Position numbers and translations under genes: made by a program. The notes below the pieces were generated by a model. The model searched no databases. It saw only the letters and a list, made by a program, of their open reading frames with translations, and had not been told where the DNA came from. Below, piece by piece: positions 19,541 to 39,745 of a stretch of DNA of 64,000 bases. Numbering within the stretch: position 1 is the first letter of the stretch; each line of letters opens with the position of its first letter. Location of the stretch: the NCBI GenBank assembly GCA_963931925.1, contig OZ007580.1:9093501-9157500 (forward strand), written 5' to 3'. This DNA is from Onchidella celtica. Lineage: Eukaryota > Mollusca > Gastropoda > Systellommatophora > Onchidiidae.

Positions 19541-19904
19541 TTTAGGTCTTTATTTTAGCAAGTTCTCTGCCCTTGGCATTTACACTTCACTTTTTATTTT
19601 ATTTTTCTTGTTGTGGCAGGGATTAGTTTTTTTAGAATTTTGCCCGGGCAGGGGCCTGTTCAGCCTGCTCTTCTCAATTTTTAACTGCCATGGTATCTTT
19701 AAAGTGTGCAATGTGCACACGGGCCCTCCGAATGTTTCGTCCTTGTCCGAGAAGACTAGGTACTCAATCCTACCTACTATAGGATCACGGACAGGAAAAT
19801 ATGGGGATAATCCCAAAGTTCCAACATGCTTGCACCAACCGGGATTTGAACCCGGTACCTTCGGCATGAGAGGCGAGCACCTTGACTCTAGACCACAGCG
19901 TCCC
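19541..19904 (-). mobile_element. tRNA-derived SINE, copy 2 (near full length)
   Basis: On the minus strand it runs from a tRNA-like head to the tail CTAAAATAAAGACCTAAA. The head has an A-box-like TCTAGAGTCAAGGTGCTCG, and the B box is GGGTTCAAATCCC. The body motifs TAGTCTTCTCGGACAAGGACG, GAGGGCCCGTGTGCAC and GATACCATGGCAGTTAA are intact. RNA polymerase III would start at the right-hand end. Confidence 0.93.
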
Positions 19905-28684: not shown

Positions 28685-29443
28685 ATCCGGTTGCTGTGTC
28701 TCTTCTCCTGTCCTTTACCTTAAATAATTAAGCTTCCTGGGTACATTTTTCTGTTTGCCTGTTCATACGTGTGTGCCTGCCTGCGTTATGCCCCTTTTCA
28801 ATTTTATGCTTTTCGTATGTATGGTGTGTCATAGAACATCTCATCATAAAATCGCCTCAGCACTGCTTTATTCTATCTCCTTAATAGTTTGTACAAGAAA
28901 AAATGAGGCACGGCCACAATAATAACATGGCATAAATGAAGTACATTCTAAAATCCATTCCTAGAAAAAAGGTGACGATATCTCATCTGTGGCAGTGGAT
29001 CTTAAAATGTTTTTTTTTTAAAAATCTATCTTACCCTCTACCGCCCAGTGTACCATACTTGAGACAGGTCAAATGCTTTATCTTTGATACACTTACTCTT
29101 CCAATTTTATTATCAAGTAATTTTTCCAATTACATATTTATACTGGAAGGAGTTCCGTACTCGAGCGCCAAAGACCAGAAACTGACTAAAAGAGGGGACT
29201 TTTTGAAACTAACTAAAAGAGGGGACTTTTTGATCGGGTTTATACAAAGATTGGCTAAAAGAAAGAAAGAAAGAACGAAAGAAATTAATAAAGACAGAGA
29301 GATAGCGATTTATCGATTTGTTTGTACTGCATCTCTTCCTGTGGGAGGGAGAAGGCATTTCTATTATTAGTACATAATATTCATACATGACATATTATTA
29401 TACACGACATCAGGAAGCATCAATCTGTAAATAGAATAGAAAA

Positions 29444-29527
29444 ATTATTAGTGGTGGAAGCGGGATTAGAACCTGTACCGTCAGACACACTGAGTCTCCC
29501 TATCGATTTAGCCACGAAGACACGTTG
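29444..29527 (-). repeat. tRNA-like segment (SINE head or tRNA pseudogene)
   Basis: The minus strand reads TTCGTGGCTAAATCGATAGG (A-box-like) and 30 nt later GGTTCTAATCCCGC (B-box-like). The acceptor arms GTGTCTTC / GCTTCCACC do not pair, so it is not a functional tRNA gene. It is unrelated to the SINE family elsewhere in the window. Confidence 0.5.
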
Positions 29528-30082
29528 ACAGCTGGGTAAAAACAAATGCTTATATAGAATATCTCGGGATTTCAATCTTTGTAGATGATTGTTAAAATAA
29601 TTCTAACATATTTTTCATGTTTGATGCCACCAACATGTCTCTTTTGGAATTTTATAAAATCCTGTGCATGTAAAATTTATTAATTTTGTCTATTGAAAAA
29701 ATAATTTAAAACAACTAAATGCTCATCGACCATTCCTCCTACGTCATTGTTGTCTTTGTTTTGATATGCCACTTTGCACTTTGACTTTGTGCCAGTGGTC
29801 AAATTTATTTTGCTAGCTGTATCGTTACGTTCTACTTTGTACATTTTATTTCTCCTTCATCTAGATTTAGATCTATATCTAATTTTTTGGGTGGAAAAAT
29901 CAGCCCACTTCTAAATTTTGGATGACCATCGTACTTGTACATCCATTTTGACAGTTTATGTGATTTGAGTTCAATTCATCCTTTGATTTTGTTGTTACTT
30001 ACATACTATAGGACTATATCTACTTGCATTCTTTTGTGTTTTAATTTGTGCTATTTTGGTGCCTTTATCATGATTGTGTTTA

Positions 30083-30509
30083 ATGGAGGGGGCACTAAAA
30101 CAAGAAGATTTAGACTTAGACTTAGATGACTTTCAGGACTTTCAACCGTGTGCCAAGAGACGAAAACTAGTTACTGTTCCCACCAGCTCTACCTCTACTA
30201 CTACTAGTTACTGTTCCCACCAGCTCTACCTCTACTACTACTAGTGTTACTACTACTATATCTAGTGATATTCCTTGTGAAGTTAATGCCTCTGCAACAA
30301 ACTCATCTTCCACATTTATAAATTTAAGCTATTTATCGAGACGTACTGTTACTGAAGAGTCTTCTGTAGAATTAGCACAAGAACTGAAGTTAGTACCTAA
30401 GACTGCATTTTGTACAAAGTGCGGGAAAGTGTTGTTATTGTCTTCAAGTTCGTGTAAAGGAGGTGTTAAGTTCGAGTTTAGATGTCACAAAAGATCGTGC
30501 CGAAATTGA
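30083..30509 (+). pseudogene. Merlin-like transposase N-terminal region, frameshifted
   Basis: Starts at an ATG (30083): MEGALKQEDLDLDLDDFQDF, then a basic KRRKLV stretch and a Ser/Thr-rich linker. A perfect 37-bp tandem duplication (30166-30202 and 30203-30239) shifts the frame. Beyond it the frame reads TVTEESSVELAQELKLVPKT, then FCTKCGKV, then FRCHKRSCRN and TGA at 30507. The two Cys pairs (C-x2-C, then C-x5-C) resemble the zinc ribbon in front of ISXO2/Merlin transposases. The catalytic domain is missing and the product would be only about 130 aa even without the duplication. The Merlin assignment rests on this motif plus the 8-bp duplication. Confidence 0.6.
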
Positions 30510-30510
30510 A

Positions 30511-31190
30511 GGAGTTCCGTACTAAAAGAGATGATACATAGCTACCCTGGGGGCTTTCCCTGATATGTCAATCTGACTACTGCCCGGAGTTCCGTACTAA
30601 AAGAGATGATACATAGCTACCCTGGGGGCTTTCCCTGATATGTCAATCTGACTACTGCCCAGACGAACATCGGCCTACGGCCTCGATGATACAAACTGAC
30701 TAGACCCTCACGTCGTTACTTATCAATCTGACTACTGCCCTGACAAAGTGGCGCTCGAGTTTTTTATTTTGGCCACACTTTATACGAATTTCGGCCTACG
30801 GCCTCGATGATACAAACTGACTAGACCCTCACGTCGTTACTTATCAAGGAGTTCCGTACTAAAAGAGATGATACATAGCTACCCTGGGGGCTTTCCCTGA
30901 TATATCAATCTGACTACTGCCCAGACGAACATCGGCCTACGGCCTCGATGATACAAACTGACTAGACCCTCACGTCGTTACTTATCAATCTGACTACTGC
31001 CCAGCAAAGTGGCGCTCGAGTTTTTTATTTTGGCCACACTTTATACGAATTTCGGCCTACGGCCTCGATGATACAAACTGACTAGGCCCTCACGTCGTTA
31101 CTTATCAATCTGACAAATACAAACTGACTAGACCCTCACGGCGCTCGAGTTTTTTATTTTGGCCACACTTTATACGAATTTTGGCATCTC
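30511..31190. repeat. Shuffled module array inside the Merlin-like element
   Basis: At least four modules recur. A is GGAGTTCCGTACTAAAAGAG...CTGACTACTGCCC (starts 30511, 30586, 30848; the first two are a direct 75-bp tandem). B contains CGGCCTACGGCCTCGATGAT. C is CAATCTGACTACTGCCC. D is GTGGCGCTCGAG then TTTTATTTTGGCCACAC. The order is roughly A-A-B-C-D-B-A-B-C-D-B-partial-D. A and D carry pieces of the element's own terminal repeats. Confidence 0.9.
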
Positions 31191-31430
31191 TTTTGCGAAA
31201 CCTGTCCTGTGTATCTTTGTAAAGAAAACATGGCTGCGCCTCGTGAACGGTGGGCATCGACTCATTATTTTCTTAATGGATTATGTATTTAGAATTGGTA
31301 ATTTTTATGTTTCATTGCTTTTTTTCCAATGACAATTGGATAAACCAACAAAATTAATAAGTACCGAAAAAATATATAGGGTTTTTTATCAAAAAGTGGC
31401 GCTCGAGTACGGAACTCCTCCCTTTATACT

Positions 31431-33798
31431 TTTACAACAATCTGACTATTCAAAATCTGAGATTGGCAATTTTCGCCTGGGCACTAGAGGGTTAAAACCA
31501 TGAAACGTAATATAATGCAATTTTCTCAAAAGGCGCCGATATGGCGATGAAATAAACCAGTAGCTGGGCGACGATATGTCCATCGCCTTGCTTTCCTCAG
31601 GCGCTGATACTTTTGTTTTGTTTTCTCTGTTACCCTATATTATGTCACCGTCGTCTGGCTCATGGACAAAGGCAAAGATTTAACGTCATCCCCACCTGCA
31701 TTTGATTAAGCCGCCGTATCATCACCAGACAGCACACTACAAAGCCGTCATCCCACACACCTAGACACTGATCCATGCAGCCAGCGAGAACTTCCTACGA
31801 GCAGACTCGGGGCAAATCTTCCGCTAATCAACATCCATTTCCTCATGTTCTTGTAATTTCCTTTATATTCTCCCCTGCTTCCCTTGCCAACTTTCTGATC
31901 TAATTAATCTTCACGCCGTATTAATTATACACTTTTTTTGTTTGTTTGTCTGCCATGTATGTATTGAGATGCCAGATCTTAGTTGGCAACTCCACGATAA
32001 AAACAGAAGATAGAACTGCTGTTAACTAAAAGAGTTGATAATAAGGGAAGAACGTGCAAACGAGAGACAAAAGCAAGAGTCTGCGGTGGGTACGGGCACA
32101 AAGTGCTTACGACATGTACCAAATTCCTTCTTTTTGTTTTATGTTGTTCTTGTTTTGTCGTTGCTGCTGCTGCTGTTGTTGTTGTTGTTTTTTTCTTGGG
32201 GGGGGGGGGGGGGGGACTGAAGGACAAGAAGACTTCGATTTACACCATGTGTAAAAATATTTTACCATAAAACACAATAGAAATACCAACCGAAAAAAAA
32301 ATTATAAAAATGATCAAACCGTCTTTCTCAGTTCACTCTATCCCAGTTTAATCAGTTGTTTGTTTTTTGGGGTTTTTTTCCCCCGTTCTTCCTGGTGTAA
32401 AGCTTACTAATCTCGACGGTTTGTGGGCGATATCATTGGTTCTGTTAGTGCTACGATAAGCATCGAGCACCGAATGTGTGATATCAAGATTAAACACGGC
32501 ATCTATCGCTCTTTGAGGAAAAAAAAGAGGGTAGATATGAACTCTGACAAGAAAGAGTGTTAAACTAAAAGCCCTCGGTCATACACGGCCTGCACTAGGA
32601 TGCTTTTGAAAAAAAAACAAAAAAACTGGAAGCTCCCCATGCAACTAATAGGTGCTCTATTTTTTCTTTTCTTTTTTAACACCACAGGTAACCAACGTAC
32701 CTCCAGGGTTCGAATGAACCGGTAAGTATCGGGAAAATACCATTTGCCGATCAGAAAACGGAAAGGGTTTTGAAGAATTTGTCCCACAACCGGTTTTACT
32801 GTCTTGAAACCGGAAAGAGTTTAATGATCTTGTAAAAAAAAAAAGGTACACGAAGCGTTTCACGATGAAAATGCCCAGGTGAGCAGACACTACTCAGTCC
32901 AAAATAGATGACTACATATAGATCTAATTTTGTTCCAAATTAGTTGGCTACGACGGGTGTTGGTTTTCCTGGAACTAGGTTTTTTGTTGTTGTTTTTTGA
33001 CAAAGTGGTTGAATCTGGACAAATGGAGATAGCCAATCAGAAGACTGTTTATCAAAATTCCTTACGCCGCCACTGATCTCTGCTTTATGCGCGTCCACTC
33101 TCAAAGGTGAGTTGTCGGCAAATCTTTGTTGGTCGATAATCTGGCGTCTATGGACCTCAATTTCCAGATTGGCCCGCTCGTAAACGCAGGTAATTCCCTT
33201 GTTTATAGACCTTTTACTGTCGGTATATTGTTCGCCCTGAACTGACCGGAAGCTGGCCAATGTCTAAACGATGTTTTCCTGGCCTGCGGCTTATCATCCA
33301 ACAAAACAAAGGAGAAAAATATAATCCTGATTCCTGTTGCTTTTGAGCTAAACCATCAGAATAATATGTCAACAATTTGTCAGCAACCTTAAAGTACTGT
33401 CTAAGCTCATAAAATCTTTTTCACGGCACTAGAGAAAGGGGAAAAAAAACACAAAGAAAATCTTGCTATCCTTTGTCTTCGGAATTTCCATGTAATATTT
33501 GTTAAACCTGGCAATTATCCAGCTGAACAGTTGACAATTATGTCAGATTTTGAGTTTGATTAATAAAGAAAAGGAAAATATGCCGACAGTGAAGGTATCA
33601 GTATCAGTCAGAGCCACTGGACTTGTTTGCTTACAAAAGCAAAATCATCGGGTGCTGACGTAGTGAACTTGTGATCTTTCAAGTGAAACGTATATAATTT
33701 TTAAAAATTGTTTACAAGATGAGACAGAGTACATTTCGACGACTCGATTATTAAATTAAAACAGGCAAGCGAGAGTACTTCACTGTGAGCATTTCCAT
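31431..33798. other. Mostly unique stretch with (TTG)n/poly-G and one weak exon candidate
   Basis: A CTG/TTG run followed by poly-G lies at 32160-32216; frames crossing it are artefacts. The minus-strand frame 32940-33260 contains ERANLEIEVHRRQIIDQQRF, which has protein-like composition and a GTAAGG near 33065, but no family match and no clear acceptor. Nothing else recognised. Confidence 0.4.
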
Positions 33799-34801
33799 AA
33801 TAAAAGACCTGAAAACATATGTGATACTTTTGGAACATCGAATACAAAGAATTTTTGGGTTTCAATAAACACATGTTTCTTCAAAATTTAATAAAAGACC
33901 TGAAAACATAATGTGATACTGTTGGAACATCGAATACAAAGAACTTTTGGGTTTCAATAAACACATGTTTCTTCAAAATTTAATAAAAGACCTGAAAACA
34001 TATTTGATACTTTTGGAACATCGAATACAAAGAACTTTTGGGTTTCAATAAACACGTGTTTCTTCAAAATTTAATAAAAGACCTGAAAACATATGTGATA
34101 CTTTTGGAACATCGAATACAAAGAACTTTTGGGTTTCAATAAACACGTGTTTCTTCAAAATTTAATAAAAGACCTGAAAACATATGTGATATTTTTGGAA
34201 CATCGAATACAAAGAACTTTTGGGTTTCAATAAACACGTGTTTCTTCAAAATTTAATAAAAGACCTGAAAACATATGTGATACTTTTGGAACATCGAATA
34301 CAAAGAACTTTTGGGTTTCAATAAACACATGTTTCTTCAAAATTTAATAAAAGACCTGAAAACATATGTGATACTTTTGGAACATCGAATACAAAGAACT
34401 TTTGGGTTTCAATAAACACGTGTTTCTTCAAAATTTAATAAAAGACCTGAAAACATATGTGATACTTTTGGAACATCGAATACAAAGACCTTTTGGGTTT
34501 CAATAAACACGTGTTTCTTCAAAATTTAATAAAAGACCTGAAAACATATGTGATACTTTTGGAACATCGAATACAAAGAACGTTTGGGTTTCAATAAACA
34601 CACGTTTCTTCAAAATTTAACAAAAGACCTGAAAACATATGTGATACTTTTGGAACATCGAATACAAAGAACTTTTGGGTTTCAATAAACACACGTTTCT
34701 TCAAAATTTAATAAAAGACCGGAAAACATATGTCATACTTTTGGCACATCGAATACAAAGAACTTTTGGGTTTCAATAAACGCATGTTTCTTCAACATTT
34801 A
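33799..34801. repeat. 91-bp tandem array, 11 copies
   Basis: Eleven head-to-tail units of 91 bp (one of 92), very highly similar. Each runs AATAAAAGACCTGAAAACAT, GTGATACTTTTGGAACATCG, AATACAAAGAACTTTTGGG, TTTCAATAAACACGTGTTTC. Most carry the palindrome AAACACGTGTTT (an E-box CACGTG); others have CACATG or CACACG. No long frame. High identity implies recent expansion. Confidence 0.97.
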
Positions 34802-34889
34802 ATGACTGCGGCATACATTGGATTCGCCAGATTACCTCCCACCTGGAAACTGACCATGCATGTTTTATTGCATGTGTGAGTTTCACGCA

Positions 34890-38799: not shown

Positions 38800-39745
38800 T
38801 TTTAACGCAGTTCTGTATGCGTAGTTTCTCTATCTAGCATTATAATCATAATAATATACTATCATGAAAATGGCTTTACTCTCTGTTCTGCTAGTCAGTC
38901 TCCTTGAAGACAGTTCTGTTGCGCTGTTTCTCTATCTAGCATTATAATCATAATAATATACTATCATGAAAATGGCTTTACTCTCTGTCCTGCTAGTCGG
39001 TCTCCTTGCAGACAGTTCTGTATGCGTAGTTTCTCTATCTAGCAGTATAAACATAATAATATACTATCATGAAAATGGCTTTACTCTCTGTTCTGTAGTC
39101 AGTCTCCTTGCAGACAGTTCTGTATGCGTAGTTTCTCTATACAGCATTATAAACATAATAATATACTATCATGAAAATGGCTTTACTCTCTGTTCTGCTA
39201 GCCAGTCTCCTTGAATGTAATTTTTAACGCATTTTTGTATGTGTAGTTTCTCTATCTAGCATTATAAACATAATAATATACTATCATGAAAATGGCTTTA
39301 CTCTCTGTCCTGCTAGTTAGTCTCCTTGAAGGCAGTTCTGTATGCGTAGTTTCTCTATCTAGCATTATAATCATAATAATATACCATCATGAAAATGGCT
39401 TTACTCTCTGTCCTGCTAGTCAGTCTCCTTGAATGTAGTTCTGTGTGCGTAGTTTCTCTATCTAGCATTATAATCATAATAATATACCATCATGAAAATG
39501 GCTTTACTCTCTGTCCTGCTAGTCAGTCTCCTTGAATGTAGTTCTGTATGTGTAGTTTCTCTATCTAGCATTATAATCATAATAATATATTATCATGAAA
39601 ATGGCTTTACTCTCTGTTCTGTAGTTAGTCTCCTTGAAGACAGTTCTGTATGCGTAGTTTCTCTATCTAGCATTATAATCATAATAATATACCATCATGA
39701 AAATGGCTTTACTCTCTGTTCTGCTTGCCAATCTCCTGTCAACGA
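38800..39745 (+). repeat. 103-bp tandem array, 9 copies
   Basis: ATGAAAATGGCTTTACTCTC recurs at 38864, 38966, 39069, 39171, 39286, 39389, 39492, 39595 and 39697 (spacing mostly 102-103 bp, one 115). Each unit translates as MKMALLSVLLVSLL-(E/A)-x-SS, which looks like a secretory signal peptide, preceded by an AT-rich ATAATCATAATAATATA block. At 103 bp the frame is lost between most units; 102-bp variants keep it for a pair of units. The last unit continues into a 147-codon frame (39492-39935) with a Cys-containing tail that I do not recognise. Confidence 0.93.

Follow-up and report, generated by a model that had tools for sequence, protein, structure and literature searches.

Merlin-like ends and the insertion footprint

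The closest described systems are the transposons of the Merlin superfamily, which are eukaryotic and related to the IS1016 group of IS1595. According to PMC8101967 these elements have inverted repeats that carry a terminal GG and measure 24-462 bp, target site duplications of 8 or 9 bp and a DDE_Tnp_IS1595 domain; in PMC4202319 all 84 microsporidian Merlin consensus elements that are complete are reported to have that domain. The element described here is similar in its GG start, in 26-bp ends that fall within the published range and in the 8-bp duplication seen around this one copy, and departs from the superfamily in that no DDE_Tnp_IS1595 domain was found in the copy at 29145-31422. Published Merlin elements already include some with internal tandem repeats and others with pseudogenized transposases. 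Family Sy.k_F2 of Symbiodinium kawagutii likewise combines 26-bp ends with internal tandem repeats; compared by description only, it differs in having kept its DDE domain and in a repeat unit of 163 bp (12 bp in one copy). In another species the transposase of Merlin copies is pseudogenized, yet the ends and duplications are nearly conserved (PMC8101967). In automatically built mollusc libraries Merlin elements are almost restricted to cephalopods, according to PMC10294476, where reading frames revealed 63 Merlin elements.

The window (the whole stretch of 64,000 nt that was analysed) contains a transposon copy of 2.3 kb at 29145-31422, whose inverted ends and 8-bp duplication mark its limits exactly:

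29137-29144, no strand: left target site duplication, TTTATACT, a perfect match to 31423-31430
29145-29170, plus strand: left terminal inverted repeat, 26 bp, GG start, 25/26 matching the right end
31397-31422, minus strand: right terminal inverted repeat, 26 bp, 25/26 matching the left end
31423-31430, no strand: right target site duplication, TTTATACT, a perfect match to 29137-29144

Both ends carry GG and differ from each other at base 3 only. When the whole window was scanned for paired ends (exact 12-base seed, at least 23 of 26 positions matching, 0.2-6 kb apart, perfect 8-bp duplication) this was the single pair returned, and none of 40 dinucleotide-preserving shuffles of the window gave any paired inverted ends with an 8-bp duplication. 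The 22-base core of the end, with up to three mismatches allowed, is found at two places in the window, both of them the ends of the element, against a mean of 0.00 in 100 shuffles. The sequence-only reading had proposed that 26-bp ends and a perfect duplication delimit the element exactly, and these results bear it out; that a single DNA transposon copy was inserted at 29145-31422 is close to certain.

The surrounding window has many microsatellites and no long frames. A frame open at the window edge (1-345) matches a retroelement integrase C-terminus (Integrase_p58_C, E 1.7e-08), the family scan having covered the element and two other frames. These features, together with the lack of tRNA genes, indicate a eukaryotic host, probably an animal. 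Tandem arrays are present at 2199-2775 (76-bp unit, 7.8 copies, with ATCTAGATCTAG motifs), 33798-34803 (11 copies of a 91-bp unit, 97% matches) and 38808-39737 (about nine copies of a 103-bp unit).

The broken reading frame and the superfamily assignment

The interior of the element contains a reading frame in two pieces, together with two features in its left part:

29178-29231, no strand: a 27-bp subterminal repeat that includes ACTAAAAGAG, present twice in head-to-tail order, from repeat analysis
29450-29523, minus strand: doubtful tRNA-like segment, with stretches resembling A and B boxes, from a loose box pattern at 29464-29514
30083-30244, plus strand: ATG-started 5' part of the broken reading frame
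30166-30239, no strand: perfect tandem duplication of 2 x 37 bp, a unit length not divisible by three, sitting where the frame pieces meet
30171-30509, plus strand: open frame ending in cysteine knuckles, C-x2-C-x20-C-x4-C, its stop codon overlapping the start of the repeat array

A single internal ORF had been claimed from the sequence, and this did not hold: the pieces 30083-30244 and 30171-30509 lie in different frames and meet at the 37-bp tandem duplication, so that the copy encodes no intact protein there. The cysteine knuckles are indeed at the frame end as described, although the last pair is C-x4-C and not C-x5-C; the cysteine spacings are, in order, 2, 10, 9 and 4, with one extra cysteine between the pairs. 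Similar cysteine pairs presumably precede the DDE domain in some invertebrate ISXO2-like proteins. The N-terminal zinc finger of IS1595 (Zn_Tnp_IS1595) was not among the Pfam matches for the translations of 30204-30506 or 30402-30506; the former gave no matches, and the latter one other family at chance level (E 0.59, 10.6 bits against a cut-off of 27). Matches of the cysteine-bearing frame to two NCBIfam families (E 0.061 and 0.096, far below the cut-offs) and of the cysteine piece to two solved structures (E 4.3 and 5.3) are also at chance level. A single-sequence fold of the last 49 residues of the 30171-30509 frame predicts, with low confidence (mean pLDDT 59.5), four short strands.

No DDE_Tnp_IS1595 or other transposase domain was found when the six frames of the element were searched against Pfam with E up to 10, a setting at which the HMMER filters still drop most matches above about 0.1; the sole match was to a helix-turn-helix family (E 6.3). 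The absence of DDE_Tnp_IS1595 would be expected of a deletion derivative. It does leave some room, although not a great deal, for the copy to be a decayed Mutator-like element (MULE), a Zisupton, hAT or P element, or a member of an undescribed superfamily with 8-bp duplications, a reading that we consider rather unlikely. The 8-bp duplication is not unique to Merlin, as Mutator-like and Zisupton elements can also make duplications of about 8 bp, and the catalytic domain that would decide between these groups was not found. On the other side, hAT and P ends usually begin differently from GG, and no piece of a Mutator-like, Zisupton, hAT or P transposase domain was seen in the six frames either, a lack that does not itself exclude these four in a deletion derivative. 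The GG-starting ends of 26 bp fit the 24-462 bp given for Merlin, and the perfect 8-bp duplication of this one copy agrees with the 8 or 9 bp given in PMC8101967. The Merlin assignment made in the sequence-only reading is thus favoured by the ends and the duplication and lacks the domain; because this defining domain was not found in the six frames, we treat membership as likely rather than established. We favour, with moderate confidence, a reading of the element as a single cut-and-paste DNA transposon copy that has decayed and is non-autonomous, with Merlin as its most likely superfamily. That it would also represent a new non-autonomous family, as the sequence-only reading proposed, is a conjecture from this one copy. 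No papers came up in a literature search on Merlin and subterminal repeats.

The tRNA-like segment at 29450-29523 may be what is left of a tRNA-derived SINE within the element. The loose A/B box pattern has three matches in the window, that at 29464-29514 (minus strand) among them, and the predicted fold of the segment is no cloverleaf. ARAGORN called no tRNA genes in the window at its usual threshold; at a relaxed threshold it gave two low-scoring tRNAs near the segment and did not call the segment itself. No Rfam family reached its gathering threshold in the window, and an Rfam match within 29100-31500 (E 3.1) was judged to be due to chance. We note that tRNA promoter-like A and B boxes are also found by the loose pattern at 19843-19895 (minus strand), possibly another tRNA-derived SINE.

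The repeat array and its relation to the ends

The internal repeat modules that had been claimed are present to the right of the frame, and include pieces of the inverted repeat itself:

about 30508-31190, no strand: array of repeat units with spacings of 75 to 262 bp, from repeat analyses and blastn
30511-30860, plus strand: outer half of the inverted repeat, GGAGTTCCGTACT, with copies at 30511, 30586 and 30848, seen in 0 of 1000 interior shuffles
30745-31149, minus strand: inner half of the inverted repeat, with copies at 30750, 31011 and 31140, its 10-mer seen in 0 of 1000 interior shuffles

The two halves, with three copies each, are never joined within the array, and the inner-half copies at 30750 and 31011 extend to 15 bases. 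The six copies may represent two origins, since tandem copies are not independent. At the junction with the frame, the copy at 30508-30523 (GAAGGAGTTCCGTACT) shares 16 bases with the left end and has the left-end base at the one position where the ends differ; its origin from the left end, as judged by this one base, is plausible. The outer half continues after ACT into AAAAGAG, and the left subterminal repeats have this continuation of ACT too, at 29185 and 29212. A blastn comparison of the element with the window gave, beyond its own repeats and ends, three short matches of 26-32 bp. An 11-base sequence in the right flank (31438-31448, CAATCTGACTA) is in common with a stretch repeated inside the array, which may be chance.

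The resemblance of the junction copy to the left end and of the outer-half continuation to the left subterminal repeats suggests, tentatively and at a little under even chances, that the array is end-derived filler replacing the lost part of the gene. We put it no higher because the 10-mer ACTAAAAGAG has two occurrences elsewhere in the window, at 32025 and 35641, which weakens the short-homology argument for such filler. The related claim, that the catalytic region has been replaced by repeat modules, gives a fair account of the anatomy, and its assumption that a catalytic region was formerly present is an extrapolation from it.

As the main alternative, the array might be a normal part of the family, consisting of transposase-binding repeats that predate the decay of the gene, and this possibility, about which we are doubtful, is compatible with a Merlin identity. 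It would account for the presence in the array of both inverted-repeat halves, three times each, and of 10-base pieces that are also found in the 27-bp repeats near the left end. However, the array starts within the gene frame, the stop codon overlapping its first bases as if the gene had been cut there, and it sits about 0.2-0.9 kb from the right end with no counterpart near the left end detected by blastn of the element against the window. Insertion of a second, related element into the first at about 30508 is improbable: a 16-base copy of the left end does stand at that position, but a second right end is lacking, and no recurrence within 30401-31500 was seen downstream for the 8 bases preceding the junction copy (offsets 30507-30511, one mismatch allowed). 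Those in front of the outer-half copies at 30586 and 30848 do recur, yet as part of the tandem units, and once with one mismatch at 31385. It is similarly a long shot that the transposase reads the inverted repeat as two separable half-sites and that the array has been kept because it binds transposase; if this were true, the array would help a non-autonomous copy to compete for transposase, or would damp it.

Proposed origin of the copy and its significance

The end-derived filler reading can be set within the following sequence of events. The transposase gene of the parent element would have begun near 30083 and encoded a cysteine-knuckle domain at its N-terminus; the rest of the gene was presumably lost in the present copy or in an ancestor. 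Copying from the ends of the element may have filled the break, as could happen in abortive gap repair with template switching, and the filler would then have expanded by tandem duplication into the repeats now observed. The frame is additionally interrupted by the 37-bp duplication. A transposase made elsewhere would have recognised the 26-bp ends, excised the element and inserted it at TTTATACT with an 8-bp stagger; the ends, the duplication and the lack of an intact encoded transposase are observed, and we infer the transposase and where it came from. In maize Ds elements and comparable deletion derivatives, an internal deletion is accompanied by filler copied from the element itself. Ds resembles the present copy in this respect, although it belongs to the hAT superfamily and the presumed filler at 30508-31190 differs in having grown into a tandem array.

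The sequence collections searched for other copies were prokaryotic or viral and may omit the window's own genome, so that misses say little. A pattern of the ends with 19 specified bases had no match in viral_contigs and one in genome_contigs, in a record of uncultured Roseburia; the latter was rejected because about two chance matches were expected (an estimate for 257 billion bases, both strands), and it had no second end in 8000 bases and a best blastn piece of 24 bases (E 0.015). Two array-module patterns had no match in viral_contigs, none of the 87 viral_contigs stretches that fit the peptide pattern of the cysteine-bearing frame was confirmed, and the whole element had no match in phages or plasmids. 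Letters of the outer half were found in livestock papers and judged to be chance oligonucleotide matches, and four strings from the array modules were not found in the literature.

The element offers a clean example of a transposon copy with a broken gene that appears to have gained end-derived repeats. Were the array not common to its relatives, it would be a routine annotation item; if related copies do have the array, it would show transposon ends seeding satellite-like repeats inside non-autonomous families.
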